Source: Stappia albiluteola
Lineage (GTDB): Bacteria > Pseudomonadota > Alphaproteobacteria > Rhizobiales > Stappiaceae
NCBI RefSeq assembly: GCF_014050225.1
Contig: NZ_JACFXV010000043.1
Location: 248,001-312,000 of the forward strand
Length of the DNA: 64,000 bases
Direction: 5' to 3'
A program made the position numbers and the translations under genes. Shown here piece after piece: positions 46,889 through 62,585 of this stretch (position 1 is the stretch's first letter; each line of letters begins with the position of its first letter). The notes beneath the pieces were generated by a model that saw only the letters and a program-made list of their open reading frames with translations, did no database searches and was not told the origin of the DNA.

Positions 46889-47818
46889 TCATGCGTCGAG
46901 ATCCTTCCGCGCGCCCTTGCGGCGGTGCTCTGGCGCCTCATCCTCGCCCTGCGCCGGGTCGAGGTCGAAGACGATCCGCTCTGCGCCCGACAGGGCGACG
47001 AAACGGCGGCCGCGGGCGCGTCCGATCAGCGTCATGCCGACCTGCCGCGCCAGCTCCACCCCCCATGCGGTGAAGCCGGATCGCGATACCAGGATCGGTA
47101 TTCCCATCATCGCAGTCTTGATCACCATTTCCGACGTCAGCCTGCCGGTCGTGTAGAAGATCTTGTCGGCGGGACCGACCTTCTCGCTCCACATCCAGCC
47201 GGCAATCTTGTCCACCGCATTGTGGCGACCGACATCCTCCATATAGACGAGCGGACGATCCTCCTGGCAAAGCACGCAGCCGTGAATGGCGCCGGCGGCG
47301 AGGTAGAGGGAAGGGGCGGTGTTGATCTTCTTCGTCAGGGCCGCGAGCCAGGACGTGCGGAGGCGCGCATCCGCGTCGAGCTCGATCTCGTCGAAACGGT
47401 CCATCACGTCGCCGAAGACGGTCCCCTGCGCGCAGCCGGAGGTGCGCACCTTCTTCTTCAGCTTGTCCTCGTAGTTGGTCGCGCGCTCGGTGCGCACCAC
47501 CACGACCTCCAGGTCCTCGTCATAGTCGATGCCGGTCACAACGTCGTCCGGCTTCAGCATGTTCTGGTTGATAAGGTAACCGACCGCGAGCAGGTCGGGA
47601 TGATCGCCGATCGTCATCATGGTGACGATCTCCTGCGCATTGAGATACAGCGTCAGCGGCCGCTCGGTCACGACCCGCGTATCGATGGGCTGGCCGCTCT
47701 GGTCGATGCCGGCGACGGCTTTCGACAGGCGCTCGTCGTCCGGGTCGGGACGCACGAGGAATTCCCCCTCGACTGGCTGGAACGATTTCGGGTCGCCCGC
47801 TCGACCGCTCAACGGCAT
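46889..47818 (-). CDS. fdhD: Formate dehydrogenase accessory sulfurtransferase FdhD
   Basis: 309-residue protein that passes sulfur from a cysteine desulfurase to the Mo-bis-MGD centre of formate dehydrogenases. Visible: ERPLTLYLNAQEIVTMMTIGDHPDLLAVGYLINQ (about 53-86), VRTSGCAQGTVFG (about 125-137), and the cofactor-binding VYMEDVGRHNAVDKIAGWMW (about 190-209) with TGRLTSEMVIK. The usual CxxC pair of the sulfur-carrying loop is here Cys-Ala-Gln-Gly, a single cysteine. A charged C-terminal tail (about 285-309) follows the conserved domain. First gene of the fdhD-mobA-mobB-moeA group. Confidence 0.92.
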   Translation of the reverse strand: MPLSGRAGDPKSFQPVEGEFLVRPDPDDERLSKAVAGIDQSGQPIDTRVVTERPLTLYLNAQEIVTMMTIGDHPDLLAVGYLINQNMLKPDDVVTGIDYDEDLEVVVVRTERATNYEDKLKKKVRTSGCAQGTVFGDVMDRFDEIELDADARLRTSWLAALTKKINTAPSLYLAAGAIHGCVLCQEDRPLVYMEDVGRHNAVDKIAGWMWSEKVGPADKIFYTTGRLTSEMVIKTAMMGIPILVSRSGFTAWGVELARQVGMTLIGRARGRRFVALSGAERIVFDLDPAQGEDEAPEHRRKGARKDLDA

Positions 47819-49179: not shown

Positions 49180-49650
49180 TCAGACCATCAGCGCGGCGCG
49201 GGTGATGCGTGCGGGATCGAGCCTCTTCGCGATGCCTTCCATGATCGACAGCGTTTCGCGGAAGCCGGCACTGGCCTCGCCGCGCGCAAATCGGTGGATC
49301 GCTTGATTGGTCCTGGTCGAGGGTGTCGCTCTAAGGTCCGCGAAATACATCCAGCTCGCCCGGAACAGCCGGTTCGGGATGCGGGCGGAGGATACAACCT
49401 GCAGCGACGCCAGGCGCGGATCCCGGCGGGCGCAGTCCAGCGTATCGTCGAGACCGGATATCTCGCCTTCGATCCACTGAAAGACGTGATTCGGGAAGAG
49501 CAGGATGGCTCCGGTAACGCCGTTCAGCCGGTTCAGCCGCCTCGCCCGCATCAGGGTTCGCTCTATTTCATCCTCGACGGGACGATGAACGGCCGTCCAG
49601 TCGATCGTGGCGCGAAAGGCGAGCCCATGCAGGTCCGGGTGGAGGTCCAT
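49180..49650 (-). CDS. BLUF-domain-like protein
   Basis: 156 residues from ATG 49650, chosen for AAGGGAG nine bases upstream (the frame is open much further, but across mrp on the other strand). Residues about 8-110 match the BLUF (FAD blue-light sensor) fold: RRLNRLNGVTGAILLFPNHVFQWIEGE (about 37-63) keeps the Asn..TG and the Gln of FxQ-x-(L/I)EG, and DPRLASLQVV..RLFRASWMYFADL matches the end of the domain. The first strand, normally LVYxS, reads GLAFRATIDW, so the flavin-contacting Tyr is not present. The C-terminal 50 residues are helical. Nearest genes are benE and mrp. Confidence 0.7.
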   Translation of the reverse strand: MDLHPDLHGLAFRATIDWTAVHRPVEDEIERTLMRARRLNRLNGVTGAILLFPNHVFQWIEGEISGLDDTLDCARRDPRLASLQVVSSARIPNRLFRASWMYFADLRATPSTRTNQAIHRFARGEASAGFRETLSIMEGIAKRLDPARITRAALMV

Positions 49651-49860
49651 AGGCGGATACTCCCTTGAAGGATTCGACCCTGGCTCCATTCTTCCGCGGC
49701 AATGCTTCCGAAAGGGTAAAGATTGACGAAAATTGTAGTGGCCGGGCCGTTTCTCCCTCAAAGAACGCCCGGGTGCTTTCCCCTTCGGGCCGCATGAACT
49801 AAGACTGCGGACTGCAATCGGATGCGAGTGGTTGGAATGTTTTGGAAAAAGGGATCGGGC

Positions 49861-51030
49861 ATGCTGTCTAAAGAGGCGGTTCTCAAGGAGCTTTCCAAGG
49901 TCAAGGGGCCGGATCTGCAAGGGGATATCGTCTCGCTCGGCCTGGTTTCCGACATCTTCATCTCCGAGGGCCGTGTCGCCTTTTCCGTAACCGTGCCCGC
50001 GGAACGCGCGACGGAGCTCGAGCCGCTGCGCCAGGCGGCCGAAAAGATCGTTTCCGGGATGCCTGGCGTCGAAAAGGCAATGGTGGCCCTGACGGCGGAG
50101 CGCAAGGCGGGCACGCAATCGCCCGTGCGCCCGGCCCCGGCCAGGTCCGATGCAGACCGCGTGCCGCCGCCCATGCAGGCGCGGGCGCGCGCGGCGGGTC
50201 CTCAGCCCTCTACCCAGAAGCCGGGCGTGCCGGGGGTGAAGGCGATCATCGCGGTTGCGTCGGGCAAGGGCGGCGTCGGCAAGTCCACCACCACCTGCAA
50301 CCTGGCGCTTGCCCTGCAGGCGAACGGCCTGAAGGTCGGCGTTCTGGATGCCGATATCTACGGTCCGTCGGTTCCCCGCCTGTTTCATGTCACCGGCCGG
50401 CCGGAGCCGGTGTCCGGACGCATCCTCAAGCCGCTTGAAGGCTACGGCGTGAAGGTGATGTCCATGGGGTTCCTCGTGGAAGAGGAAACGCCGATGATCT
50501 GGCGCGGGCCGATGGTGATTTCCGCGATCACCCAGATGCTGCGCGAGGTCGCCTGGGGCGAGCTCGATGTCCTCGTCGTCGACATGCCGCCGGGTACGGG
50601 GGACGCGCAGCTGACCATGGCGCAGAACGTGCCGCTGGCCGGCGCGGTGATCGTTTCCACGCCGCAGGACCTTGCGCTGATCGATGCGCGCAAGGGGCTC
50701 AACATGTTCCGTCGCGTCGATGTGCCCGTTCTCGGTATCGTCGAGAACATGAGCTATTTCTTGTGCCCGGATTGCGGCGGCCGCCACGATATCTTCGGTC
50801 ACGGCGGCGCGCGCAAGGAGGCGGAGAAGCTCGGCGTTCCCTTCCTCGGCGAAGTCCCGCTCGACATGGCGATCCGCGAGAAGTCCGACGCCGGCACGCC
50901 CGTGGTGGTCACCGATCCGGACGGGCCGCATGCGACGATCTACAAGGAGATCGCGCGGAAGGTGGTGGCCGAGATTGAGCGCAACAACGCGGACGCGCAC
51001 CGCGCCCCGCCGAAAATCGTCATCGAATAG
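49861..51030 (+). CDS. apbC: Mrp/ApbC/NBP35 family Fe-S cluster carrier ATPase
   Basis: About 389 residues from ATG 49861 (frame open to 49822). N-terminal MIP18/DUF59 domain (about 1-90; VKGPDLQGDIVSLGLV), Pro/Ala linker, then P-loop ATPase with deviant Walker A VASGKGGVGKSTTTCNLALAL (about 137-157), DADIYGPSVPRLF, VDMPPGTGDAQLT, and the cluster-binding pair CPDC (about 300-303). Carries [4Fe-4S] clusters to apoproteins. Common next to Fe-S enzymes; here it precedes the formate dehydrogenase genes, which need at least five clusters, though a 325-base gap separates them. Confidence 0.93.
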   Translation: MLSKEAVLKELSKVKGPDLQGDIVSLGLVSDIFISEGRVAFSVTVPAERATELEPLRQAAEKIVSGMPGVEKAMVALTAERKAGTQSPVRPAPARSDADRVPPPMQARARAAGPQPSTQKPGVPGVKAIIAVASGKGGVGKSTTTCNLALALQANGLKVGVLDADIYGPSVPRLFHVTGRPEPVSGRILKPLEGYGVKVMSMGFLVEEETPMIWRGPMVISAITQMLREVAWGELDVLVVDMPPGTGDAQLTMAQNVPLAGAVIVSTPQDLALIDARKGLNMFRRVDVPVLGIVENMSYFLCPDCGGRHDIFGHGGARKEAEKLGVPFLGEVPLDMAIREKSDAGTPVVVTDPDGPHATIYKEIARKVVAEIERNNADAHRAPPKIVIE

Positions 51031-51369
51031 CGCGGATCGTTGCTTGGGCGGGCTTGTCCGATCGCTCGGCCGGTCTCTTCCCGGGCGACTGCGACTCGGC
51101 GGATAAGATCCGGCGTGCGGTTCCGTATGTGACCGAAAATGCCGCGGTCGCTCGTCTCCTGTAACGCAGAGATGCGCGAAAGTGTGATGCTGCAATGCAA
51201 AATATAACCACCTGAAAGAATTTTCGCGCCTGTCTTTTCGTGTCGTTCTTTGCTGTATTGCGCGTATTGATCTTGATTTTCGGCAGAAACGCACAGGTGC
51301 GGCGCAATACCAAATTCATTTGCAATATGAATAGCTTGCTCGTTATTCTTCCAGATGGGAGGCATCTGG
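51031..51369. promoter_or_regulatory. AT-richer region upstream of the formate dehydrogenase genes
   Basis: This 339-base gap has no supported gene and is clearly more AT-rich from about 51180 than its surroundings (e.g. GAATTTTCGCG, TATTGATCTTGATTTTCGG, CAAATTCATTTGCAATATGAATAG). A short inverted repeat ATTCAT (51314-51319)/ATGAAT (51327-51332) lies 38 bases before the chaperone start. Likely carries the main promoter of the fdh operon; no -35/-10 pair or FNR/FixK box with full match was found. Confidence 0.5.
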
Positions 51370-52038
51370 ATGACGGTAGCAGATACGCCAAGTCAACAAT
51401 CCCGCTCGACCAAGGCTCCAAAAGGCGAAATCGGTCAAGGCGGGATCGCGCATGCGCGGATTGCCGACGAAGATCAGGACCGCGCCGCTCTCTACAATCT
51501 CCTTGGCAGTGCCTTGGAGCGTCCTGTCGGTGGGGAATGGCTCACCGCAGCGTCGCGGCTTGTCGGTGGCGACGGGCCGCTTGGCGAGGCGATCGATGCA
51601 TTGGCGCTTGCCGCTTCGCGCATGTCGGCGCAATCAGCCGCGCGCGAATACCAGGACCTGTTCATCGGAATCGGTCGCGGCGAGCTGGTTCCCTTCGGGT
51701 CTTATTATCTGACCGGATTCCTTCACGAAAAGCCCCTGGCGCTGTTGCGTGCCGACATGGCGAAGCTCGGCGTCGAGCGCGATCCGGCGAGCAAGGAGCC
51801 GGAGGATCACGCTGCCGCGCTTTGCCAGATGATGGCCGGCTTCATTGCCGGCGCGTTTGGCCCGTCCCTCCCGCTCGATGAGCAGAAGCGCTTCTATGTT
51901 GCCCATGTCGGCAGCTGGATGCCCTATTTCTTCCGGGATCTGGAAAATGCGCAATCGGGGCAGATTTACAAAGAAATCGGCCGTATCGGCCGACTGTTCC
52001 TCGAGATTGAGGGACGGGCATTCGAGATGGTGAACTGA
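51370..52038 (+). CDS. TorD/DmsD family molybdoenzyme chaperone
   Basis: 222 residues from ATG 51370; GGGAGG is eight bases before it, which decides against ATG 51355. All-helical redox-enzyme maturation protein: RAALYNLLGSALERP (about 36-50), EYQDLFIGIGRGELVPFGSYYLTGFLHEKPLALLRADMAKLGV (about 92-135), PEDHAAALCQMMAGFIAG (about 145-162), and FYVAHVGSWMPYFFRDLE (about 177-194). Such chaperones hold the Tat signal of the molybdenum subunit until the cofactor is inserted. First gene of the fdh operon; partner is presumably the catalytic subunit at 52358. Confidence 0.88.
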   Translation: MTVADTPSQQSRSTKAPKGEIGQGGIAHARIADEDQDRAALYNLLGSALERPVGGEWLTAASRLVGGDGPLGEAIDALALAASRMSAQSAAREYQDLFIGIGRGELVPFGSYYLTGFLHEKPLALLRADMAKLGVERDPASKEPEDHAAALCQMMAGFIAGAFGPSLPLDEQKRFYVAHVGSWMPYFFRDLENAQSGQIYKEIGRIGRLFLEIEGRAFEMVN

Positions 52039-52066
52039 GAATTCGTCGCATTGGAGGATGGACGTC

Positions 52067-52273
52067 ATGGCTAAGGATGACCGGGTCAGGGATGACGGAA
52101 AGGTCGAGGCGGACCGCAGGAGCTTTCTGAAGCTTGCCGGTCTCGGCGCGGTGGCAAGCGGCGCGACCATTGTCGCCGGCGAGGCCGCTGCTGTGGAGGC
52201 TTCTTCGCAGAAAGCCTCCGGATACCGGGAAACGGAACACGTAAAGACGTTTTACAAGACGGCGCGTTTCTGA
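52067..52273 (+). CDS. Small formate dehydrogenase-region Tat-signal protein
   Basis: 68 residues from ATG 52067 (GGAGG nine bases upstream; ATG 52058 is too close to it). An acidic/basic start, then a twin-arginine signal RRSFLKLAGLGAVASGATIVAG (about 18-39), then about 28 residues ending YRETEHVKTFYKTARF. Matches the 'formate dehydrogenase region TAT target' family (TIGR02811-like) found in fdh operons. It has no cofactor-binding residue; perhaps a small periplasmic subunit or signal-like helper of export. Located 28 bases after the chaperone. Confidence 0.8.
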   Translation: MAKDDRVRDDGKVEADRRSFLKLAGLGAVASGATIVAGEAAAVEASSQKASGYRETEHVKTFYKTARF

Positions 52274-52357: not shown

Positions 52358-55273
52358 ATGCTGAGGAAAAAGGCGAGCGCTGCAGCCCGTCCGGCCCGGT
52401 TGTCCGCTGCAATCGAGGCAATCGGCGCCAGTGCCATGGACCGCAGAAGCTTCCTGCGCCGGTCCGGTGTGACGGCGGGCGGCGTTGCTGCTGCGGCGGC
52501 CTTCTCCGGATCGATGGTGCGCCGGGCGGAAGCCCAGGCCGCAACCGCGGCGAAGGTCGACATCAAGAAATCGGTCTGCACGCACTGCTCGGTCGGCTGT
52601 ACCGTGCTGGCGGAGGTGCAGGACGGTGTGTGGATTGGCCAGGAACCGGGGTTCGACAGCCCGTTCAATCTTGGCGCCCATTGCGCCAAGGGTGCCTCCG
52701 TGCGCGAGCATGCGCATGGCGAGCGGCGGCTGAAATACCCGACCAAGCTGGTCAACGGCAAGTGGGAGCGCATTTCCTGGGATCAGGCGATCGAAGAGAT
52801 CGGCAACAAGATGCTGGAAGTGCGGGAGAGCTCCGGGCCTGACAGCGTCTACTGGCTGGGTTCGGCCAAGCACTCGAACGAGCAGGCCTATCTGATCCGC
52901 AAGTTCGCCGCCTTCTGGGGGTCGAACAACGTCGATCACCAGGCGCGTATCTGTCACTCGACCACGGTCGCGGGTGTTGCCAACACCTGGGGCTATGGCG
53001 CGATGACGAATTCCTACAACGATATCCATAACTCGCGGGCGATCTTCCTGATTGGCGGCAACCCGGCGGAAGCCCATCCGGTTTCCCTGCTGCATCTGCT
53101 GAAGGCCAAGGAAGAGAACAACGCGCCGCTGATCGTCTGCGATCCGCGCTTCACCCGTACAGCCGCGCATGCGAGCGAGTATGTGCGCTTCCGTCCGGGC
53201 ACGGACGTGGCGCTCGTCTGGGGCATTCTCTGGCACATCTTCGACAATGGCTGGGAGGACAAGGAGTTCATCCGCCAGCGCGTCTGGGGTATGGACCAGA
53301 TCAAGGCCGAAGTCGCCAACTGGACTCCGGAAGAGACCGAGCGCGTCACCGGCGTGCCCGGCTCGCAATTGAAGCGCGTTGCCCGCACGCTGGCGAACAA
53401 CCGTCCGGGCACGGTGATCTGGTGCATGGGCGGCACCCAGCACACCAACGGCAACAACAACACCCGCGCCTATTGCGCCTTGCAGCTTGCGCTCGGCAAC
53501 ATGGGCAGGGCGGGCGGCGGCACCAACATCTTCCGCGGCCATGACAACGTGCAGGGTGCGACGGATCTCGGCGTGCTGGCCGATACGCTTCCCGGTTATT
53601 ACGGTCTGGAAGAAGGAGCCTGGAAACATTGGGCTCGTGTGTGGGACGTCGACTACGGTTATCTGCAGGGCCGCTTCGCCACGATGAAGGGCAAGGACGG
53701 CGCTGACGTCGCGATGATGAACGAGAAGGGTATTCCCGTCTCGCGCTGGATCGATGGCGTGCTGGAGGACAAGGAAAACCTCGTCCAGCCCGACAACACC
53801 CGGGTGATGGTGCTTTGGGGCCATGCGCCGAACTCGCAGACCCGGCAGCCGGAAATGAAGACGGCGATGGAGAAGCTCGACATGCTTGTCGTGGTCGATC
53901 CGTATCCGACCGTCTCGGCGATCCTGCACGATCGCACCGATGGCGTCTATCTGCTGCCGGCGGCGACGCAGTTCGAGACCTCCGGCTCGGTGACGGCGTC
54001 CAACCGCTCGCTGCAATGGCGCGAAAAGGTGGTCGAGCCGCTGTTCGAGGCGCTGCCCGATCACACGATCATGTACAAGTTCGCGGTGAAGTTCGGCTTT
54101 GCCGACGAGATGTTCAAGAACATTGCGGTGGAGAACGACGAGCCGCTGGTGGAGGACATCACCCGCGAATTCAACCGCGGCATGTGGACCGTCGGCTATA
54201 CCGGCCAGTCGCCGGAGCGGCTGAAGATGCACATGGCCAACCAGCACACCTTCGACCGCACGACGCTGCGGGCGAGGGGCGGTCCGGCCGATGGCGACTT
54301 CTACGGCCTGCCGTGGCCGTGCTGGGGTACGGCGGAAATGGGTCACCCCGGCTCGGCGGTGCTCTACGATACGTCGATTCCGGTCGCCGAAGGCGGCATG
54401 GGCTTCCGCGCCCGCTTCGGCGTGGAGCGGGATGGCGACAACCTACTGGCCGAGGGATCGTGGCCGGTCGGCTCGGAGATCGAGGATGGCTACCCCGAGT
54501 TCACCATGGCCATGCTCGCGAAGCTTGGCTGGGACGGCGACCTGACTGCCGAAGAGCGGGCCTCGATCGAGAAGGTCGCGGGCTCGTCCGATCCGGAAGC
54601 GGTCGGCAAGGTGAACTGGAAGACCGACCTGTCCGGCGGCATCCAGCGGGTGGCGATCAAGCATGGCTGCGCGCCCTACGGCAACGCCAAGGCCCGCGCG
54701 GTGGTGTGGACCTTCCCGGATCCGGTGCCGCTGCATCGCGAACCGCTCTATACCAACCGCCGCGATCTGCTCGACAAGTACGCCACCTATGACGACAAGG
54801 TCTTCTGGCGCGTGCCGACGGCCTACAAGTCGATCCAGGAGAAGGACTTCTCCAAGGATTTCCCGATGATCCTGACTTCGGGACGCCTGGTGGAATACGA
54901 AGGCGGCGGCGACGAGAGCCGGTCCAACCCGTGGCTGGCGGAACTGCAGCAGGACATGTTCGTCGAGATCAACCCGGTCGACGCGAACAACCTCGGCATC
55001 CGCGACGGCGAAATGGTCTGGGTCACCGGTCCGGAAGACGGCAAGGTCAAGGTCATGGCGATGATCACCGAGCGCGTCGGCCGGGGCGTTGCCTTCATGC
55101 CATTCCACTTCGGCGGCTGGTTCCAGGGCGAGGATCGTCGGTCGAAATATCCGGCCGGAGCCGATCCTTACGTGCTTGGCGAAGCGTCGAACACGGCCCA
55201 GACCTACGGGTACGACTCGGTCACCCAGATGCAGGAAACAAAAGCCACGCTGTGCCGCATCGAGCGCGCGTGA
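52358..55273 (+). CDS. fdhA: Formate dehydrogenase, molybdenum catalytic (alpha) subunit
   Basis: 971-residue molybdopterin oxidoreductase oxidising formate to CO2 in the periplasm. Tat signal at about residues 28-60 (DRRSFLRRSGVTAGGVAAAAAF), unusually preceded by about 27 residues. [4Fe-4S] ligands CTHCSVGC..C at about 73-108. Active-site residue is Cys about 199 in RICHS, in place of selenocysteine; the following His and Arg are present. GGTQHTNGNNNTRAYCALQLALGNMG (about 363-388) and the C-terminal MGD-binding domain (SGRLVEYEGGGDESRSNPW, FHFGGWFQGED) are intact. The size and gene order match the membrane-bound Fdh3/FdnG-like type. Followed 14 bases later by the beta subunit. Confidence 0.95.
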   Translation: MLRKKASAAARPARLSAAIEAIGASAMDRRSFLRRSGVTAGGVAAAAAFSGSMVRRAEAQAATAAKVDIKKSVCTHCSVGCTVLAEVQDGVWIGQEPGFDSPFNLGAHCAKGASVREHAHGERRLKYPTKLVNGKWERISWDQAIEEIGNKMLEVRESSGPDSVYWLGSAKHSNEQAYLIRKFAAFWGSNNVDHQARICHSTTVAGVANTWGYGAMTNSYNDIHNSRAIFLIGGNPAEAHPVSLLHLLKAKEENNAPLIVCDPRFTRTAAHASEYVRFRPGTDVALVWGILWHIFDNGWEDKEFIRQRVWGMDQIKAEVANWTPEETERVTGVPGSQLKRVARTLANNRPGTVIWCMGGTQHTNGNNNTRAYCALQLALGNMGRAGGGTNIFRGHDNVQGATDLGVLADTLPGYYGLEEGAWKHWARVWDVDYGYLQGRFATMKGKDGADVAMMNEKGIPVSRWIDGVLEDKENLVQPDNTRVMVLWGHAPNSQTRQPEMKTAMEKLDMLVVVDPYPTVSAILHDRTDGVYLLPAATQFETSGSVTASNRSLQWREKVVEPLFEALPDHTIMYKFAVKFGFADEMFKNIAVENDEPLVEDITREFNRGMWTVGYTGQSPERLKMHMANQHTFDRTTLRARGGPADGDFYGLPWPCWGTAEMGHPGSAVLYDTSIPVAEGGMGFRARFGVERDGDNLLAEGSWPVGSEIEDGYPEFTMAMLAKLGWDGDLTAEERASIEKVAGSSDPEAVGKVNWKTDLSGGIQRVAIKHGCAPYGNAKARAVVWTFPDPVPLHREPLYTNRRDLLDKYATYDDKVFWRVPTAYKSIQEKDFSKDFPMILTSGRLVEYEGGGDESRSNPWLAELQQDMFVEINPVDANNLGIRDGEMVWVTGPEDGKVKVMAMITERVGRGVAFMPFHFGGWFQGEDRRSKYPAGADPYVLGEASNTAQTYGYDSVTQMQETKATLCRIERA

Positions 55274-55287
55274 GGGAGGGATAACTC

Positions 55288-55887
55288 ATGGCACGGATGA
55301 AATTCCTGTGTGACGCGGAGCGCTGCATCGAATGCAATGCCTGCGTGACGGCATGCAAGAACGAGCATGAGGTCCCCTGGGGCATCAATCGTCGGCGCGT
55401 GGTGACGATCCAGGACGGCAAGCCGGGGGAACGCTCCATCTCGGTCGCCTGCATGCATTGCTCGGATGCGCCCTGCATGGCGGTCTGCCCGGTGGATTGC
55501 TTCTACCAGTCCGAAGAGGGAGTGGTGTTGCATTCCAAGGACCTGTGCATCGGCTGCGGCTATTGCTTCTACGCGTGCCCCTTCGGGGCGCCGCAATATC
55601 CGCAGGCCGGCAATTTCGGCTCGCGCGGCAAGATGGACAAGTGCACCTTCTGTTCGGGCGGTCCGGAGGCTGACAATTCGCAGGCTGAATTCACCAAATA
55701 CGGCCGCAACCGTCTGGCGGAAGGCAAGTTGCCGCTTTGCGCGGAAATGTGCTCGACCAAGGCGCTCCTGGCCGGCGACGGCGATGTGGTCTCGGCGATC
55801 TATCGCGAGCGCGTCGTGGCACGCGGTTTCGGTTCCGGTGCCTGGGGCTGGGGCACGGCCTACGAGCAGAAGGCCGGCAGCTTCTGA
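55288..55887 (+). CDS. fdhB: Formate dehydrogenase iron-sulfur (beta) subunit
   Basis: 199 residues carrying four ferredoxin-type cysteine groups: CIECNACVTACKNEH (about 12-26), CMHCSDAPCMAVCPVDC (about 56-72), CIGCGYCFYACPFGAP (about 91-106) and CTFC..CAEMC (about 118-155), enough for four [4Fe-4S] clusters forming a wire between the catalytic subunit and the membrane cytochrome. It lacks the C-terminal membrane helix of E. coli FdnH. Exported presumably bound to the Tat-signal-bearing alpha subunit. A strong terminator-like hairpin follows 47 bases later. Confidence 0.94.
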   Translation: MARMKFLCDAERCIECNACVTACKNEHEVPWGINRRRVVTIQDGKPGERSISVACMHCSDAPCMAVCPVDCFYQSEEGVVLHSKDLCIGCGYCFYACPFGAPQYPQAGNFGSRGKMDKCTFCSGGPEADNSQAEFTKYGRNRLAEGKLPLCAEMCSTKALLAGDGDVVSAIYRERVVARGFGSGAWGWGTAYEQKAGSF

Positions 55888-55934: not shown

Positions 55935-55962
55935 GGGGCGGGGTCATTCCCCGCCCCGTTTT
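55935..55962 (+). terminator. Intrinsic terminator-like hairpin after fdhB
   Basis: Perfect 9-bp stem GGGGCGGGG (55935-55943)/CCCCGCCCC (55949-55957), loop TCATT, followed by GTTTTG. It lies in the middle of the formate dehydrogenase gene run, 62 bases before the next start. Either ends an fdhAB message or attenuates it, leaving less of the downstream membrane genes. Confidence 0.65.
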
Positions 55963-56023: not shown

Positions 56024-56242
56024 GTGGCGACCGGGTCGAATTCGATCAAGACGAGGCGTGGAAGGGTTGTGCTGGCGGCCATGGCGGGATTGCTGGCCAT
56101 TGGTCTTTCCTCATGCCGTGAGGATGAGCAGAACCGGGCGCTACACCTTGAAAAGGGAACCTATGCCGGCAAGGCCGACAAGGAACTGACGCCGGAGCAG
56201 CAACGCGAGTTGCAGGCGCGCGGTTACAAGCAAAAATTCTGA
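56024..56242 (+). CDS. Small lipoprotein of the formate dehydrogenase operon
   Basis: 72 residues from GTG 56024 (AGGAG 13 bases upstream). Basic start, hydrophobic segment VVLAAMAGLLAIGLSSC with lipobox LSSC (Cys about 31), then a charged 40-residue mature part CREDEQNRALHLEKGTYAGKAD.. of high Glu/Lys/Gln content. I recall short lipoproteins with the 'DEQ.R.L..EKG.Y.GK.D..L' pattern near cytochrome genes, without a known role. Position between fdhB and the cytochrome b gene suggests an accessory anchored on the periplasmic face of the inner membrane. Confidence 0.75.
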   Translation: MATGSNSIKTRRGRVVLAAMAGLLAIGLSSCREDEQNRALHLEKGTYAGKADKELTPEQQRELQARGYKQKF

Positions 56243-56307
56243 AAGGCGTCGCGTGACGCAACAGCGGGCGGTGGGCGGTGTTGATTGGCAATCTCGGGAG
56301 GGAGACG

Positions 56308-57489
56308 ATGCGGAAAGCGGTGGAAACCTGTCGTGAGCAAGTTCCGGATCGCAATACCCGCGGACATGGGGCGCAGTCGCATCGCGGCGCCGCGTTCCTG
56401 AAATTGGCGGTGTTCCTGTTATTCGCGTTCCTTCTCGCGGTTCCGGCTCTGGCGCCGGCTCAGGCGCAGCCGACGTCGAACCCCGTTGCCTCGGAAAGTC
56501 CGGCCGATGGCCATGTACCCGGCAACACATTGGGTACGGCTTCGGATGCGGATCTGTGGCGCGCCGTGCGCCAGGGCGTGGCTGGCAATGTGTCCATTCC
56601 CGACAAGAAGGCGGGAACGCTCGTCCAGTCGGAAGGCGAACTCTGGCGTTCGCTGCGCAATGGTCCTGTTGCTCTTTATTCCAGCTGGGCGCTGATCGGC
56701 ATGATCGTGCTGCTGGCGCTGTTTTTCGCCCTTCGCGGCCGAATCCGGATCGATCATGGGCGCTCCGGCGCAACCATCACCCGCTTTGCCGGTTATGAGC
56801 GCTTCGGCCACTGGCTGCTGGCGCTTTCCTTCCTCACCCTGGCGGTTACCGGCCTGAACATCATGTATGGCCGATATGTGCTGCTGCCGATCATCGGGGG
56901 CGAGGCGTTCGGTTTCATCACGCTGATGGGCAAGTACCTGCACAATTACCTCGCCTTCGCCTTCATGGCCGGGCTGGTGATGATCTTCCTGATGTGGGTG
57001 CGCCACAATCTGCCGGACCGCACCGATCTCGTGTGGCTGGCAAAGGGCGGCGGCATTTTCGTCAAGGGCAGCCATCCACCGGCGAAGAAGTTCAACGCCG
57101 GGCAGAAGGCGATCTTCTGGCTCGTCATCCTGCTTGGCCTCTCGCTGTCCGTCTCCGGCTGGGCACTTCTCTTCCCATTCACGACGGATTTCTTCTCCGG
57201 CACGTTCGCGGCGGTGAATGCCGTCTTCGGCACCGACCTGCCGACCGCGCTGGCTCCCATCCAGGAACAGCAGCTCAACAGCCTGTGGCATTCGGTCGTC
57301 GCCGTGGCGCTGACCTGCGTCATTCTCGCCCATATCTATATCGGCTCGGTCGGCATGGAGGGCGCCTTCGACGCGATGGGCTCGGGAGAGGTGGACCTCA
57401 ACTGGGCCAAGGAACACCACTCGATCTGGGTCGAGGAGGTCACTGCCGGGGAGCGCGGCCCTGCCGGCGCTCCGCAGGCGGCCGAATAG
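56308..57489 (+). CDS. fdhC: Formate dehydrogenase cytochrome b (gamma) subunit
   Basis: About 393 residues from ATG 56308 (GGGAGGGAG upstream). An N-terminal hydrophobic/signal-like segment (about 30-52), a periplasmic stretch (about 53-120) longer than in E. coli FdnI, a first span (about 122-142), then the four-helix cytochrome b556 core: RFGHWLLALSFLTLAVTGLNIMYG (about 161-184), KYLHNYLAFAFMAGLVMIFLMW (about 206-227), IFWLVILLGLSLSVSGWALLF (about 262-282) and LWHSVVAVALTCVILAHIYIGSVGMEGAFDAM (about 322-353). His in HW, HN, WHS and AH are candidate haem ligands. Passes electrons to quinone. Confidence 0.92.
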   Translation: MRKAVETCREQVPDRNTRGHGAQSHRGAAFLKLAVFLLFAFLLAVPALAPAQAQPTSNPVASESPADGHVPGNTLGTASDADLWRAVRQGVAGNVSIPDKKAGTLVQSEGELWRSLRNGPVALYSSWALIGMIVLLALFFALRGRIRIDHGRSGATITRFAGYERFGHWLLALSFLTLAVTGLNIMYGRYVLLPIIGGEAFGFITLMGKYLHNYLAFAFMAGLVMIFLMWVRHNLPDRTDLVWLAKGGGIFVKGSHPPAKKFNAGQKAIFWLVILLGLSLSVSGWALLFPFTTDFFSGTFAAVNAVFGTDLPTALAPIQEQQLNSLWHSVVAVALTCVILAHIYIGSVGMEGAFDAMGSGEVDLNWAKEHHSIWVEEVTAGERGPAGAPQAAE

Positions 57490-57502
57490 CCGCAAGCCGG
57501 GC

Positions 57503-58885
57503 GTGGCAACAATGACCGCCTGCGGCCTGAAGACCGTATTGGCTTTCGGCGTGACCATGTGCCTCGCCGGGACGGTTCATGCCTGGCCCGAGCGCTTCGA
57601 GGGCCACGGCGGGCCGGTCAAATCCATCGCCCTGTCGGCGGATGGCAGTTCGGCGCTTTCCTCGTCATTCGACTATTCGGCGATCGTCTGGCAGGTCGGC
57701 AAGGATAGCGCTGCCGTCGGCCAGCGTCTGATCGGCCATGAGGGCCCGCTTAACGACGGCGTGCTGGTCGGGAAGGACATGGCCGCCACCGTGTCCGACG
57801 ACGGCTCTGTCGCGCTTTGGAATCTTGCGACCGGCGAGATGCTCGACCGTGTGGACGAGGGCGAGGAAAAGATGATCCGGGTCGCCGCCAGCGCCGATGG
57901 CCGGTTCGTTGCTTCCGCGTCCTGGGATCGCAATGCCTATGTCTACGGCCTTGCCGGCAACCGGCTTGGCCGCCACGCCGTTCTGTCCGGCCATCGCGGG
58001 CCGGTCAACGCGGTTGCGTTCCTTCCTGACGGCAAGCGGCTGATAACGGCCTCCTATGATGGTGTGATACGCCTCTTCGACGCGGACAGCGGTGAATTGC
58101 AGCGTGAGGCCTATTCCCACGGCTGGGGCGTCAATGTGCTGGCCGTATTGCCGGATGGTGACCGGGTCGTCTTCGGTGCCGCCGATGGCGAGGCCGGTGT
58201 GATTTCGCTTGCCAGGGGAGAGATCGTCAAGATCCTACCGAAGCACGAGCGTCCCGTGCTTTCCGTGGCCCTCTCGAGCGACCTCAGCGCACTGGCAATC
58301 GGAGATGGCGCAGGCGTCATCCGTTTCTACTCGGTGGACGGCTTCGCCCTGGAAGAGGAATTTCAGAACCCCTATGGCCCGGTATGGGGTCTTGCGATCT
58401 CTCCCGACAACAAGACGGTGTTCTATGCCGGGCTCGACGATAGCGTGAAGTCCTGGCAGGTGACGCCGCGCGCGCCGTTCGAGCCGGTGGAAAATGACTT
58501 CCCGCGACGCTTCCAGGTCTCGGAAACGGCTGATCCCGGGGAGCTTCAATTCGCCAGGAAGTGCTCCGTCTGCCATACTCTGACGCCGGATGGCGCCAAT
58601 CGGGCAGGGCCGACGCTCTATGGTGTGTTCGGACGCAAGGTCGGTTCGCTGCCGGGTTATCCCTATTCGAATGCCCTGAGGACGGCCGACTTCGTCTGGA
58701 GCGAAAAGACCATTTCCGATCTCTTCGACTACGGTCCGGACGTGGTGACGCCCGGTTCCAAGATGCCGCTGCAAAGGCTCAGGACGGAGGCCGACAGGGA
58801 TGCCCTGATCGCCTTCCTGAAGCGGGCGACGGCGCCGGGTCCGGATCGGCGGAGCTCCCAGGAAAGAAACGAGGTGGTGAAATGA
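57503..58885 (+). CDS. WD40 beta-propeller protein with C-terminal cytochrome c domain
   Basis: 460 residues (GTG 57503; ATG 57512 equally possible). Signal peptide ending TVHA-WP (about residue 27). Residues about 33-325 hold seven WD40-like repeats, e.g. GHGGPVKSIALSADG, GHEGPLNDGVLVG, GHRGPVNAVAFLPDG, KHERPVLSVALSSD, enough for a complete seven-bladed propeller. The C-terminal 105 residues are a class I cytochrome c: haem site CSVCH (about 354-358), GPTLYGVFGRKVGSLPGYPYSNAL, and Met ligand in GSKMPL. Periplasmic and covalently haem-bound. Directly after the cytochrome b gene (13 bases), so likely an electron outlet or docking factor of this formate dehydrogenase. Ends in an ATGA overlap with the next gene. 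Confidence 0.88.
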   Translation: MATMTACGLKTVLAFGVTMCLAGTVHAWPERFEGHGGPVKSIALSADGSSALSSSFDYSAIVWQVGKDSAAVGQRLIGHEGPLNDGVLVGKDMAATVSDDGSVALWNLATGEMLDRVDEGEEKMIRVAASADGRFVASASWDRNAYVYGLAGNRLGRHAVLSGHRGPVNAVAFLPDGKRLITASYDGVIRLFDADSGELQREAYSHGWGVNVLAVLPDGDRVVFGAADGEAGVISLARGEIVKILPKHERPVLSVALSSDLSALAIGDGAGVIRFYSVDGFALEEEFQNPYGPVWGLAISPDNKTVFYAGLDDSVKSWQVTPRAPFEPVENDFPRRFQVSETADPGELQFARKCSVCHTLTPDGANRAGPTLYGVFGRKVGSLPGYPYSNALRTADFVWSEKTISDLFDYGPDVVTPGSKMPLQRLRTEADRDALIAFLKRATAPGPDRRSSQERNEVVK

Positions 58886-59046
58886 AGGCGTTTCTGGCAG
58901 GTCTTGCGGCCATGGCTGTCATCGGCGTCGCTGCCTGGGCCGTCCTGACCAAGGCCTACGATTACTCTTCGGCCAGCGTCTATACGTCGGCCAATCCGGG
59001 CGCCGTACGCCTGTCGCCCTCCGACGAGGCGCAAAAGGGCGGCTGA
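58882..59046 (+). CDS. 54-residue single-span membrane protein
   Basis: Starts at ATG 58882 inside the stop of the WD40-cytochrome gene (ATGA), with GAGGTGG as ribosome-binding site. One hydrophobic segment MKAFLAGLAAMAVIGVAAWAVL (residues 1-22, shown here without further residues), then YDYSSASVYTSANPGAVRLSP and a short acidic/lysine end. No cysteine or haem motif. The overlaps on both sides (TGATG with the protease gene) argue that it is a real, dose-matched component, like the small single-span subunits of other respiratory complexes (inference). Confidence 0.72.
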   Translation: MKAFLAGLAAMAVIGVAAWAVLTKAYDYSSASVYTSANPGAVRLSPSDEAQKGG

Positions 59047-59990
59047 TGCGGTTTCATTCGGGCGCATTGGCGCTTGCGTGTATGTCCTGCCTGCTGCTGC
59101 CTGGCGCTGCCGCGCGCGCCGATCCGAAGGCTATAGCCGACGCGCGCCACTCCGTGGTTGTTCTGCTGCCGGACTGGCCGAAGGGCCGGGTTCGCGCCGA
59201 AGAACCCGAGGGCTCGGCGGTGGTGGTTGCGGACGGGCACTGGCTCGTCACCGCGGATCACGTCCTCGGGCCTGCGAAGGGCGCTCGCATCCGTCTTGCG
59301 GACGGCCGCCTGATCGATACCGAAATTGCCGCTCGCGACCGGGAAAGCGATCTTGCTTTCCTGCGAATTGCCGAAGCCTTGCCGCCGATTGAGTTTGCCG
59401 GCGATCCGGAGGTTGCGACAACGGCCTGCGCCATCGGCAACAGCTTCGGTCTCGGGGTCGCGGTTACGTGCGGCGTCGTGTCCGCCACGGGCCGAGGGGG
59501 TGTCGGCTTCAACGATATCGAGGATTTCGTGCAAACGGATGCCGCCGTCAATCCGGGCGCTTCGGGCGGGGCTCTCGTCGATGAATACGGCCGGCTGATC
59601 GGTATCCTGTCGGCAATCTACACCAAGGCCAATGACGGTGACCTCGGCGTCAATTTCGCGGTCTCCGCGCCGTTGACCGCAGTATTGTTGGAAAAGATCC
59701 AGGCAGACGGCCGCCTCGCGCATTTGCGCCTCGGCGTGTCGCTTGTCGAAACGCGTCCCGGCCCCGAGGCGGCCGGATTGGAGGTCCGCGCCGTGGAGGC
59801 CGGCGGGCTGGCGGAACAGGCCGGTTTGCGTGCCGGGGATGTCGTCGTTGCCGTTGACGGCGCTCCCGTTTCGTCCGTGGCCGGCCTGAGGGGCAGGCTG
59901 GCGAGGGAAACTGGCGGTTCCTCGCTGAAAATCCGCCGCGCGGGTGAGGTGGCCGATATTTCGGTGAGGTACGCAATAGGAGACAATTGA
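59046..59990 (+). CDS. Periplasmic trypsin-like serine protease with PDZ domain
   Basis: 314 residues. Signal peptide (1-26, ending AARA-D). Chymotrypsin-fold protease with His72 (TADHVLG), Asp102 (RESDLAFL) and Ser173 (NPGASGGALVD; the usual HtrA GNSGG has Ala for Asn here). PDZ domain at about residues 230-310 (LGVSLVE, AGLRAGDVVVAVDGAPVSS). HtrA/DegP-like proteases remove or refold damaged envelope proteins; with only one PDZ and a place inside the formate dehydrogenase operon, it may act on that complex, e.g. processing or quality control. TGATG coupling to the small upstream gene. Confidence 0.87.
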   Translation: MRFHSGALALACMSCLLLPGAAARADPKAIADARHSVVVLLPDWPKGRVRAEEPEGSAVVVADGHWLVTADHVLGPAKGARIRLADGRLIDTEIAARDRESDLAFLRIAEALPPIEFAGDPEVATTACAIGNSFGLGVAVTCGVVSATGRGGVGFNDIEDFVQTDAAVNPGASGGALVDEYGRLIGILSAIYTKANDGDLGVNFAVSAPLTAVLLEKIQADGRLAHLRLGVSLVETRPGPEAAGLEVRAVEAGGLAEQAGLRAGDVVVAVDGAPVSSVAGLRGRLARETGGSSLKIRRAGEVADISVRYAIGDN

Positions 59991-60090
59991 TCGGCAAGAG
60001 GACTATCGTCTTGCAGGGATAAAACCTTGAAAATCTGATAGAAACACGCTCATTGGCGTGCGGGCTGCAAATTGCGGAGGAAGGGAAGGA

Positions 60091-60282
60091 ATGAACGAGG
60101 AAAACTTCAACATGTCGATGCGCAAGTTCCTGAAGCAGGTCGGCGTGACCTCGCAGCAGGCGATCGAGCGTCAGGTGCGCGAGACCGGCATGGAAAGCGG
60201 CAAGCTCAACGTTCGCATGAAGCTGACGATCGACGGCCAGGACTTTGAACACGTCGTCGAAGGGGTGATCGATCTCGACTGA
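60091..60282 (+). CDS. DUF6494-like small protein
   Basis: 63 residues from ATG 60091 with an excellent GGAGGAAGGGAAGG site. Soluble, charged, beginning MNEENFNMSMRKFLKQVGV and ending with an acidic IDLD; alternating pattern suggests two helices and a beta hairpin (MKLTIDGQDFEHVVEGVI). I associate it with family DUF6494, which has no known function. No signal peptide, so cytoplasmic. Seven bases before the ligase-like gene and 100 bases after the protease gene; same strand as the fdh genes. Confidence 0.75.
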   Translation: MNEENFNMSMRKFLKQVGVTSQQAIERQVRETGMESGKLNVRMKLTIDGQDFEHVVEGVIDLD

Positions 60283-60289
60283 CCGGACC

Positions 60290-61054
60290 ATGCCGGAGCG
60301 CGCCGTGACACCTGTGGAGCCAAGTTTTCCGCCCCTGCTGACCGGTATTGCGGTCGATGCCGGGACCGATGCCTTTGCGGCTGCCTGCGAGGGCGCGCGA
60401 CGGGGCGAACTGGGCGCCGGGGATTTTGTCTGGTCGCGCGCCATCGACCGCATTTCGGTCGCTCTGGTGCTGGAGCCGGATGTCGACCGGCGGCGCGCCC
60501 GCGAAATGCTGTTCGTCGCCATGGTGGCGCTGGCCGATGCGATCGGCGCCAATACGCCGCCGGAATTCGCCTTTACCTGGCTATGGCCGGCAACGCTTCG
60601 GGCGAACGGTGCCGCTGTAGGGCAAATGCGCTACCAGGAAGCCCCGGCCGCAAGCGACGACGCCACTCCGGACTGGCTCGCCGTGGGTATCGAGATCCGG
60701 TTGTTCGATGTGACCGCGCCCGAAGGGGAACCTGGCGAGCGGCCCGACAGAACAACGCTTGCCGAGGAAGGGGCAGGAGACCTTGAGGCCGGCGAGATGA
60801 TCTCTTCGCTTGCCCGTCACTGGCTTACCTGGATCCATCGCTGGGAAACCGACGGCATTCGCCCGGTGCACGAGGCCTGGCTGTTTCGTGCCGACGGCTA
60901 TGGCAAGGAGGTGGCGCTGCCGTCGCTGCACGGAGAGGCGAAGGGCATCTTTCTCGGACTGGACGAGGCCGGCAATCTTTTGCTGAAGGCGGAGGGCGGC
61001 GTCAGGCTGCTTTCGCTTGCGGAGCACCTTGCAATCCAGCGGCCAGAGGCCTGA
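60290..61054 (+). CDS. Biotin/lipoate protein ligase-fold protein with degenerate active site
   Basis: 254 residues. Residues about 15-185 follow the biotin/lipoate A/B ligase fold; the C-terminal part (about 195-250; GEAKGIFLGLDEAGNLLLKAEGGVRLLSL) looks like a small SH3-like biotin-ligase end (DUF4444-like). The segment that aligns with the catalytic (K)WPND..G.KVAGI of biotin ligases reads WLWPATLRANGAAVGQM (about 97-113): the catalytic lysine is Ala, and Asn-Asp of WPND are changed. The GRGRxxR loop is also unrecognisable. So acyl-AMP ligation is unlikely; a binding or assembly role is inferred. Tightly packed with DUF6494 and DUF6505 genes. Confidence 0.8.
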   Translation: MPERAVTPVEPSFPPLLTGIAVDAGTDAFAAACEGARRGELGAGDFVWSRAIDRISVALVLEPDVDRRRAREMLFVAMVALADAIGANTPPEFAFTWLWPATLRANGAAVGQMRYQEAPAASDDATPDWLAVGIEIRLFDVTAPEGEPGERPDRTTLAEEGAGDLEAGEMISSLARHWLTWIHRWETDGIRPVHEAWLFRADGYGKEVALPSLHGEAKGIFLGLDEAGNLLLKAEGGVRLLSLAEHLAIQRPEA

Positions 61055-61055
61055 G

Positions 61056-61538
61056 ATGCCGCGTTTTCTGAAGGCCATCCGCCTCGATATCTCCGACGTC
61101 CATGTGTTTCCGCAGGCGGCGGAGCCCGGCGAACCGGTCCTCCCCGGCGCATTCGTCTTTCACGATGTCCGACCGGAAGACCTCGCCGGCAAGCTGCGGC
61201 AGGCCTTCGTCTCCGGTTTCCTGTCGCTTGAGACATTCGGCTGGACGACGCTTGCAACGCCGGTGGACCTCAGCGATGGCGAGATCGAAGCCCTGACGCT
61301 GCGCCTTGCTGAGCATTTCATGTCGCACTACGGCGCTCCGAGCATGGAGGCGGCGCTTCCCGTGGCGCGGCAGGAAATTCAGGATACGGTGGAGCTTGCC
61401 AGCGGCCTTGCAATCAACGCGCTTCTGGCGGTCAAGCGCGAGCGGGACGAGACGGGCGCCATGCGCGAAGCTTTTCATCTGGTGACGCCATCAGGCGAAA
61501 AGCCGCATGCATGCGTCTGGGATGTCGAGGAAGATTAG
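61056..61538 (+). CDS. DUF6505-like protein
   Basis: 160 residues from ATG 61056, one base after the stop of the ligase-like gene. Soluble, no signal peptide. Begins PRFLKAIRLDISDVHVF, with RPEDLAGKLRQAFVSGFLSLETFGWTTLA (about 43-71), and a conserved-looking SPSGEKPHACVWDVEED end (here TPSGEKPHACVW). I associate it with DUF6505, function unknown. The AFVSGFLSLETFGW segment is amphipathic and may bind a partner. Operon placement gives the only clue: formate dehydrogenase maturation or regulation. Confidence 0.75.
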   Translation: MPRFLKAIRLDISDVHVFPQAAEPGEPVLPGAFVFHDVRPEDLAGKLRQAFVSGFLSLETFGWTTLATPVDLSDGEIEALTLRLAEHFMSHYGAPSMEAALPVARQEIQDTVELASGLAINALLAVKRERDETGAMREAFHLVTPSGEKPHACVWDVEED

Positions 61539-61568
61539 GATCCGAACTCGGTTCGAGAAGGGAGTGGA

Positions 61569-62585
61569 ATGCGGGATTTCTGGAGATCGGCGGGCATGCA
61601 TCTCGTCGGCAGGGACAAGAACGGCTGGCTGACGGTCACGCCGGATTTCCTGCGCGCTTACTACACCCGTCCGGAGATCCATCCTGTCGAGGACTCCTGC
61701 CCGGCGGAGCATGCGCTTTTCGAAAGATTGATGACCGATCCGCTTGCCGTTGTCTCCGCGAACGAGATCGAAGCCATCGTCGATCCGGATACCGCCGAAA
61801 ACTACCGCATCATTCTCGCCTTCCGCGATCACCTGGTGCGTCACGGCACAATCGAGGGCGCTTATGCCGCGTTGTTCGAGCCGGCTGCGAGCATCGTCAT
61901 TCCGCCGATATTCATCGACCAGATGGTGCATCTGATTGTCCGCAACATCCTGCGCAACGTCCATGATCCGCTGCGGGTGAGGGCGGGGGAGATCTTGTTT
62001 CGCGAACAGGCCGTCACTGTCGACGAGGGCCAACTCATGCTTGCGGATGCCGAGATCGTCGAAATGTATGCCGAGAATGGCGGCTTCGGCGGGCTTGGCG
62101 CGCTGCTCGCCGAGGCCGGTACGCCGATGCGCGAGGTTACGCTCGACGTGATCGGGGAGGACAACGCGGATATCTACTGGGAGCGTTCGGACCGGTTCGA
62201 CACGGCGATCGATTTCCGCTTCACCCAGCCGGCGCAAGATGCCTTCGCCCGCGTGCTCGAAGCCTGGATCCGGCATTTCCTTGGGGTGGAGGTGCGGGTG
62301 CAGCCGCAGCGCTCCATTCGCGACGAGCGCTGGTCCTGGCATGTCGGCCTCGATGCGGAATCGACGCGTATCCTGAACGCGCTCTACGAGGGCAAGCCGG
62401 TTGGCGAGGAAGACCTGTTCCGCGTCGTGGCCCTGTTCCGCCTCGACTTCGAAAATCCCGGCGACATGCGCGACGAACTGCGCGGTAAGGCCGTCTGGAT
62501 GGCGCTCGCCATGGGGCCGGATCAGGTCGTACGGATGAAGCCGCAGAACCTGCTCACCAATCTGCCGGTAAAGCGGCGCAACTGA
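61569..62585 (+). CDS. DUF6352-like protein
   Basis: 338 residues from ATG 61569 (GAGAAGGGAGTGG upstream). Soluble, acidic, no signal peptide or membrane segment. Opens with MRDFWRSAGMHLVGRDKNGWL; a TRPEIHPVEDSCPAEHALFERL segment (about 37-58) with one Cys; ends LLTNLPVKRRN. The middle (LRVRAGEILFREQAVTV..MLADAEIVEMY) looks helical. I associate it with DUF6352, function unknown, reported by my memory mostly beside formate dehydrogenase genes. Last gene of the run; 30 bases after DUF6505. Confidence 0.75.
   Translation: MRDFWRSAGMHLVGRDKNGWLTVTPDFLRAYYTRPEIHPVEDSCPAEHALFERLMTDPLAVVSANEIEAIVDPDTAENYRIILAFRDHLVRHGTIEGAYAALFEPAASIVIPPIFIDQMVHLIVRNILRNVHDPLRVRAGEILFREQAVTVDEGQLMLADAEIVEMYAENGGFGGLGALLAEAGTPMREVTLDVIGEDNADIYWERSDRFDTAIDFRFTQPAQDAFARVLEAWIRHFLGVEVRVQPQRSIRDERWSWHVGLDAESTRILNALYEGKPVGEEDLFRVVALFRLDFENPGDMRDELRGKAVWMALAMGPDQVVRMKPQNLLTNLPVKRRN

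Follow-up and report, generated by a model that had tools for sequence, protein, structure and literature searches.

A probable cytoplasmic accessory set for FDH3-type formate dehydrogenases, encoded beside the enzyme in Stappia albiluteola

Stappia albiluteola encodes a formate dehydrogenase and a series of further genes in a 64,000-nucleotide stretch of its genome (NCBI RefSeq assembly GCF_014050225.1, contig NZ_JACFXV010000043.1, positions 248,001 to 312,000 of the forward strand). We call this whole stretch the window, and all positions below are window positions on the + strand unless otherwise stated. Our subject is the genes that follow fdhA and fdhB, above all four that encode small or medium-sized proteins: three from domain-of-unknown-function (DUF) families (DUF6494, DUF6505 and DUF6352) and one with the fold of biotin/lipoate ligases. 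Three of these four are rarely found in genomes without this type of enzyme, and the question is what they do for it.

The catalytic subunit, FdhA (52358..55273), carries the motif RRSFLRR near its start, which we take to be a twin-arginine translocation (Tat) motif, and its true start is likely to be at 52436. The Fe-S subunit, FdhB (55288..55887), scores 343.4 bits against the NCBI family NF038355, ‘FDH3 subunit beta’, which has a cut-off of 240. Other traits of the FDH3 class are also present: a gamma cytochrome b, a TorD-family chaperone (51370..52038, with an alternative start at 51355) and FdhX (52058..52273), a ‘formate dehydrogenase region TAT target’ protein which exceeds the curated cut-off of TIGR02811 with 53.7 bits. 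Judged by these matches, the window enzyme is an FDH3-type formate dehydrogenase and not Fdn/Fdo. Its FdhA and FdhB also match chains A and B of PDB 9VAP (1411 bits to 9vap_A, 1.4e-97 to 9vap_B), placing them in one enzyme family with SoFdhAB of Shewanella oneidensis, which a section of a 2026 review describes as a tungsten-cysteine (W-Cys), oxygen-tolerant formate dehydrogenase (PMC13397495). That section is confined to FdhAB and does not mention the DUF proteins.

Downstream of fdhB, the order is as follows: a GC-rich hairpin with a perfect 9-bp stem followed by GTTTT (55935..55957); a 72-aa lipoprotein with lipobox LSSC and a GTG start (56024..56242); FdhC, the cytochrome b gamma subunit with an N-terminal extension (56308..57489; TIGR01583, 151.8 bits); a fusion of a WD40 propeller and a monohaem cytochrome c with a hydrophobic N-terminus (wdc, 57503..58885); a 54-aa one-helix membrane protein with a C-terminal VRL motif and a hydropathy peak of 2.32 (58882..59046); a DegP-like trypsin/PDZ protease (59046..59990), in whose sequence the motifs TADH, ESDLA and GASGG can be read; the 63-aa DUF6494 protein (60091..60282; PF20104, 1.3e-27); the ligase-fold protein (bpl, 60290..61054; BPL_LplA_LipB_2, PF16917, 4.1e-61, plus BPL_C); the 160-aa DUF6505 protein (61056..61538; PF20115, 4.5e-47); and the 338-aa DUF6352 protein (61569..62585; PF19879, 1.1e-89). 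Pfam finds WD40 and cytochrome c domains in the wdc frame, cytochrome b561/FDH gamma in FdhC, and trypsin-like and PDZ domains in the protease. A first-pass annotation of this DNA had named the genes from the lipoprotein onwards, and its account of them was sound: all are on the + strand where it had placed them, Pfam agrees with their names, and the overlaps it pointed out (ATGA at 58882, TGATG at 59044) are real. Its description of the series as almost without gaps was an overstatement: some joints are tight (spacings of −4, −1, 1, 7, 13 and 30 bases), but there are gaps of 136 bases between fdhB and the lipoprotein gene, 65 after the lipoprotein gene and 100 before DUF6494. The cluster is also larger than first noted, with torD, the TIGR02811 Tat-target gene and mrp/apbC, for an Fe-S cluster carrier ATPase (49822..51030; NF008669, 355 bits), immediately upstream. 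The same arrangement recurs in many genomes, so it is not a product of chance.

To see how closely these proteins follow the enzyme, we searched five family models against 289 genomes of the window's class (class sample) and also looked at 259 genomes of its phylum (phylum sample), which overlap the class sample in part. PF16917 is a broad family (164 class genomes over its cut-off), and we defined the ligase-fold subfamily as its strong matches, with E up to 2.8e-36; this limit, chosen once the matches had been listed, is only approximate, e.g., a copy beside DUF6505 in G233 (1.7e-31) falls outside it. FDH3 beta is over its cut-off in 39/289 class genomes. DUF6352 occurs in 32/289, 29 of which have FDH3 (Fisher p 5e-28); DUF6505, after dropping two weaker matches, in 28/289, 24 of which have FDH3 (p 6e-21); and the ligase-fold subfamily in 27/289, 24 of which have FDH3 (p 9e-22), all p values being uncorrected for kinship. 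Six class genomes carry at least one of the three without an FDH3 match. Reading their contigs showed fdhA fragments in two (G127 and G071) and fdhC beside bpl and wdc in a third (G228), so these three are assembly gaps; a fourth (G007) has DUF6352 without an FDH3 match and wdc-like open reading frames (ORFs) adjoining it. The phylum sample has DUF6352 in 13/259 genomes and FDH3 in 35/259, and all 13 DUF6352 genomes have FDH3, four of them (G000, G028, G189 and G283) being shared with the class sample. Far from being equally frequent with and without the enzyme, DUF6352, DUF6505 and the ligase-fold subfamily are strongly tied to FDH3.

This tie does not depend on the genes being neighbours. 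We scanned named genomes for DUF6352, taking the best 80 of at least 575 loci, and saw no FDH core gene near DUF6352 in 30 of the 80; in 28 of these 30, it was the sole module gene seen. As many of these contigs are short, some of the 30 may still have FDH genes nearby, and two (L208 and L219) share FDH3 coordinates with G028 and G226 and are therefore not independent. FDH3 is nevertheless present in 26 of these 30 genomes, in 25 over the cut-off (genome completeness is unstated). For 16 of the 30, about 20 kb of sequence was available and any FDH gene is more than about 10 kb from DUF6352; 15 of those 16 have FDH3 elsewhere. Around the 28 lone loci, no other neighbour cluster spans more than five loci. 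A tree of 36 FdhA sequences gives the same picture: DUF6352 presence requires three changes on it (shuffled mean 7.4, with none of 500 shuffles as low) and DUF6505 presence eight, while DUF6352–fdhA linkage changes six times among 26 scorable carriers, ten of which are unlinked. DUF6352 and the FDH3 genes thus move apart while the pair is kept, which is not hitch-hiking.

The genes can also travel together. Ten plasmids in PLSDB encode DUF6352, and in the four we opened (from Sinorhizobium meliloti, Bradyrhizobium, Microvirga and Methylobacterium bullatum), bpl, DUF6505, DUF6352, torD, the Tat-target gene, fdhA, fdhB and fdhC form one block. Other genomes keep a partial set: DUF6494-mrp-bpl-DUF6505 is retained, with no DUF6352 in the sequence seen, in G022, G096, G154, G252 and G288, and Sagittula stellata, opened via fdh3B, has DUF6494-Mrp-bpl-DUF6505 plus FDH genes and no DUF6352 in the stretch shown.

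Membership of the wider module was counted at two groups of 37 fdhA loci: a class-sample group, which is the fetched subset of FDH3 genomes and includes genomes with the DUFs located elsewhere, and a named group, all selected through DUF6352. The class-sample loci contain FdhX in 35, fdhC in 34, torD in 33, wdc (counted at ≥300 bits) in 25, bpl in 19, the lipoprotein, DUF6505 and DUF6352 in 16 each, DUF6494 in 14, mrp in seven and the protease in one. The corresponding counts at the named loci are bpl 35, DUF6494 30, wdc 28, DUF6505 21, protease 15, mrp 12 and lipoprotein 11. The small lipoprotein had no match in the PDB. With one class-sample locus and 15 named loci, the trypsin/PDZ protease is not a general part of the module; its gene is on the opposite strand in L092 and L190, one locus from each group, and we regard it as a lineage addition.

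DUF6494 also proved not to be specific to formate dehydrogenase: 20 of its 46 carrier genomes have no FDH3 match, or 17 after setting aside three with FDH3 fragments. Its neighbours vary in the loci without FDH3, and the protein (motif RKFLKxVGVTSQ) stays highly conserved in those genomes, so it has a general role. Its gene is convergent to sdhB in L125, L130 and L134. We rejected a place for DUF6494 in a succinate dehydrogenase cluster, as these three are the only ones among the 17 FDH3-less loci where it lies beside sdhB (recognised by eye). In G071, a DUF1326-like protein (L124:10445-11128) adjoins DUF6494, and the window genome encodes a DUF1326 protein (PF07040, 1e-54; L246:3650-4375) a few kb away from its FDH3 block; this is perhaps coincidence.

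The mrp gene lies inside the FDH3 cluster in G022, G096, G154, G252, G288, G135 and Sagittula. The window's copy is the genome's only full-length ApbC, so Mrp probably serves the whole cell. Between a benzoate transporter gene and mrp, the − strand encodes a BLUF (blue-light sensor) protein (49183-49647; PF04940, 45 bits). Defence-system models gave no meaningful match.

The putatively periplasmic WD40-cytochrome c has the haem-binding motif CxxCH in 57 of 65 frames at ≥300 bits. The 54-residue protein encoded after it is a case where protein size misleads: plain homology finds it at 0/37 class-sample and 9/37 named fdhA loci, which would make it a local addition, but this is a miss caused by its small size. 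We therefore sought its relatives directly after wdc by position, hydropathy and the VRL motif. A small one-helix ORF lies directly 3' of wdc in 33 of the 49 FDH3 loci having wdc, and in 32 of the 49 it has VRL in its second half (8/22 class-sample loci, 23/26 named loci and the window); many of these ORFs start with MKAF. As controls, at most two such transmembrane-VRL ORFs follow any of fdhC, fdhB, DUF6352, torD, bpl or fdhA. A looser scan anywhere in the locus found 17/37 and 26/37 fdhA loci and 7/69 controls, so only the position-bound count was used. The 54-residue protein is thus a conserved partner of the WD40-cytochrome, and perhaps the cytochrome's membrane anchor.

The ligase-fold protein is homologous over nearly its full length (8.6e-40) to PDB 3BFM, whose record reads ‘biotin protein ligase-like protein of unknown function’; our literature search found no paper linking 3BFM to formate dehydrogenase. 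A profile of 30 ligase-fold sequences matches BirA structures at about 1e-10. One could suppose that the protein is an active transferase which modifies an FDH3 protein or DUF6494 with biotin, lipoate or some other group. Its PF16917 membership and BPL_C domain are what an active BirA/LplA-type ligase should have, and the plasmid records annotate it as ‘biotin/lipoate--protein ligase family’. The catalytic lysine, however, is missing: the NGKV lysine of Staphylococcus aureus BirA aligns with alanine 109 of the window protein, and a lysine stands at this position in one of the 30 aligned sequences (L166) and two of a wider set of 76 (L166 and L199). The other 74, including the window's, lack it and vary widely there, and the invariant or nearly invariant columns of the 30-sequence alignment contain no lysine at all. 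Active transfer is therefore very improbable, the two sequences with the lysine notwithstanding, and the best description of the protein is a pseudo-ligase with a binding function.

DUF6505 and DUF6352 gave confident AlphaFold models (pLDDT 90.1 from 34 sequences and 90.7 from 53 sequences, respectively). Foldseek found no match for either among solved structures at E 0.001 or better, and the best VIA-align Z scores (3.5 for DUF6505, rmsd 4.5, 71 aligned; 4.4 for DUF6352, rmsd 4.5, 99 aligned) are too low to have meaning, although an absent match does not make a fold new. Neither alignment has an invariant or nearly invariant cysteine, so the two are unlikely to be Fe-S proteins themselves. 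Profile comparisons gave no support to DUF6505 or the ligase-fold protein being a relative of DUF6352. By hydropathy, the only measure used here, none of DUF6494, the ligase-fold protein, DUF6505 and DUF6352 has an N-terminal signal.

The hairpin after fdhB complicates a simple one-operon picture. Of 74 FDH3 loci, 25 have a perfect stem of at least 9 bp in the 140 bases that follow fdhB, versus 0.3% of mononucleotide shuffles. Such stems also follow fdhC (10/77), DUF6352 (4/107), wdc (3/59) and bpl (1/72), and are absent after torD (0/68), FdhX (0/73) and fdhA (0/73), although these zero rows are mostly coding DNA, which makes them weak controls, and the loci are related. A scan for sigma-70 promoters and terminators found no more than in shuffles, and folding the whole gap from fdhB to the lipoprotein gene as RNA gave a z of −0.79, which leaves the local hairpin as the one conspicuous feature. 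It may be an attenuator or an mRNA-stability element through which the stoichiometry of FdhAB is set. With such a stem, the cell might produce more FdhAB than downstream proteins, and expression may be staged. Staged expression would also suit a regulatory role, in which the DUF proteins act in the cytoplasm as a sensor or regulator for formate, redox state or tungstate/molybdate and thereby adjust the level or activity of FDH3. Regulators and tungstate-type ABC transporters, recognised by eye, lie near several FDH3 loci, and no fold match ties the DUFs to assembly, but in none of the four proteins does Pfam recognise a domain of the DNA-binding, kinase or receiver kind. We consider regulation unlikely, while giving it some weight.

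Transporter genes of the tungstate type, again recognised by eye, recur near FDH3 in L083, L091, L095, L137, L144, L152, L241 and L243, in some of these loci with a helix-turn-helix regulator also near FDH3, and are in line with a tungsten enzyme.

Comparison with better-known enzymes helps to show what is added here. E. coli Fdn and Fdo are exported molybdo/tungsto enzymes with a gamma cytochrome b, and they use FdhE in handling their precursor before export. The window locus resembles them in also encoding FdhD, the sulfur transferase for the FDH cofactor: an FdhD/NarQ family gene (46889..47818, − strand; PF02634, 3.1e-75) is a divergent neighbour, and mobA, mobB and moeA (recognised by eye only) are near it. 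It differs in its FDH3-type beta subunit and its added DUF set; FdhE was not found in any of the six FDH3 genomes tested (with E. coli as a positive control). Campylobacter jejuni is similar in having a dedicated TorD-type chaperone gene adjoining its fdh operon: this chaperone, FdhM, is a TorD homologue needed only for Fdh activity, and the parts of that paper available in excerpt name FdhM and NapD as the strain's only two Tat chaperones and do not mention the DUF proteins (PMC4148689). Operons of the TorD/DmsD-fdhGHI type carry DUF3305, DUF3306, fer4 and the fdh Tat gene, a core neighbourhood which is the same as in Stappia and the relatives, and which the excerpted text gives with no mention of DUF6352, DUF6505, DUF6494 or a ligase-like gene (PMC4464133). 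Stappia too has genes for a 4Fe-4S protein, DUF3305 and DUF3306, some 7 kb downstream of DUF6352 and past the end of the window. We found no paper that names DUF6494, DUF6505 or DUF6352, nor any title or abstract opening that describes the gene set, in a search which left subscription journals mostly uncovered.

What could such a set do? DUF6352, DUF6505 and the ligase-fold protein are each linked to or co-occur with a single exported Fe-S/Mo enzyme, which is a mark of maturation proteins. Since FdhA carries a Tat-type signal and the four proteins lack an N-terminal one, whatever they do to FdhA should happen before export. We therefore think it probable, with some reserve, that the set has an accessory or maturation role in FDH3. 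The ligase-fold protein, DUF6505 and DUF6352, in most cases accompanied by DUF6494, would form a cytoplasmic FDH3 accessory set of Alphaproteobacteria and some Betaproteobacteria, with the Fe-S carrier Mrp alongside in some lineages. Working before Tat export and together with TorD, FdhD and Mrp, it would hold the FdhA-FdhB precursor or load it with W/Mo-bisMGD and 4Fe-4S clusters, and would block export or oxidation of the half-loaded enzyme; the ligase-fold protein would be a binding subunit rather than a ligase. FdhC and the WD40-cytochrome c with its small membrane partner would then pass electrons onward. Stable co-occurrence fits a subunit as well as it fits a helper, and the DUF proteins might instead form a complex in the cytoplasm that partners the mature enzyme, or a route for electrons or formate on FdhC's cytoplasmic side, and not act a single time in assembly. 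The Tat-type signal of FdhA and the signal-less DUFs are expected to put the two on opposite sides of the membrane, which makes such a partnership improbable. 

Measured against this accessory role, the dedicated assembly, quality-control and electron-transfer system which the first-pass annotation had read into the whole gene series survives in part. The ligase-fold protein, DUF6505 and DUF6352 stand as FDH3 partners, and the 54-residue protein stands with its cytochrome, while DUF6494 and the protease drop out of the dedicated system. Assembly is still the best inference for the putatively cytoplasmic proteins; protease-based quality control is without general support because the protease is not a general part of FDH3 loci and is sometimes on the opposite strand.

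Several observations weigh against an accessory role. DUF6352 is absent from 22 of the 35 FDH3 genomes in the phylum sample, and both DUF6352 and DUF6505 from 5 of the 39 in the class sample. It is thus possible to make FDH3 without these DUFs, and the set is a lineage-specific addition and not a general FDH3 requirement. The converse also occurs: two of the six class exceptions (G281, locus L118, and G119, locus L115) have DUF6505 alone with no FDH3 match, the G119 copy looking like a relic with its internal stop, and FDH3 was not found in 4 of the 30 named genomes with unlinked DUF6352, whose completeness is unstated. DUF6494 is found without FDH3, two ligase-fold sequences keep the BirA-position lysine, and Mrp may sit in the cluster for general use. 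Neither predicted DUF fold suggests a chaperone or cofactor carrier, and a single hydrophobic peak inside DUF6352 (1.74 at residue 106) is borderline for a membrane segment. Finally, the six FdhE-free FDH3 genomes comprise four with DUF6505 and two without both DUF6505 and DUF6352. FdhE is thus absent with and without the DUFs, which cannot be a plain replacement for it and would rather be an extra layer.

Those FDH3 genomes without DUF6352, the four DUF6352 genomes without an FDH3 hit and the frequency of DUF6494 outside FDH3 genomes could also be taken to mean that the four proteins do a second job unrelated to FDH, with shared operons and plasmids as their only tie to FDH3. This is highly improbable, as DUF6352, DUF6505 and the ligase-fold protein rarely occur without FDH3, even when unlinked from it.

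An accessory role for the set leaves room for a more specific and more speculative version, which we put forward as doubtful: the pseudo-ligase, DUF6505 and DUF6352 might form one cytoplasmic complex, whose ligase-derived pocket holds bis-MGD or the nascent Fe-S subunit and inserts it under air. If true, this would be a previously undescribed cofactor-loading machine that helps aerobes to make an oxygen-tolerant tungsten/molybdenum formate dehydrogenase. The review of CO2 reduction by formate dehydrogenases, in the portion cited here, singles out an enzyme from this family because it tolerates oxygen (PMC13397495). Should helpers prove necessary for production in other hosts, the genes described here would provide a defined list, and this could be tried in Sinorhizobium or Methylobacterium, both of which carry the block. 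An accessory role would thus give three function-less families and the solved structure 3BFM a concrete and testable job, through a single enzyme.

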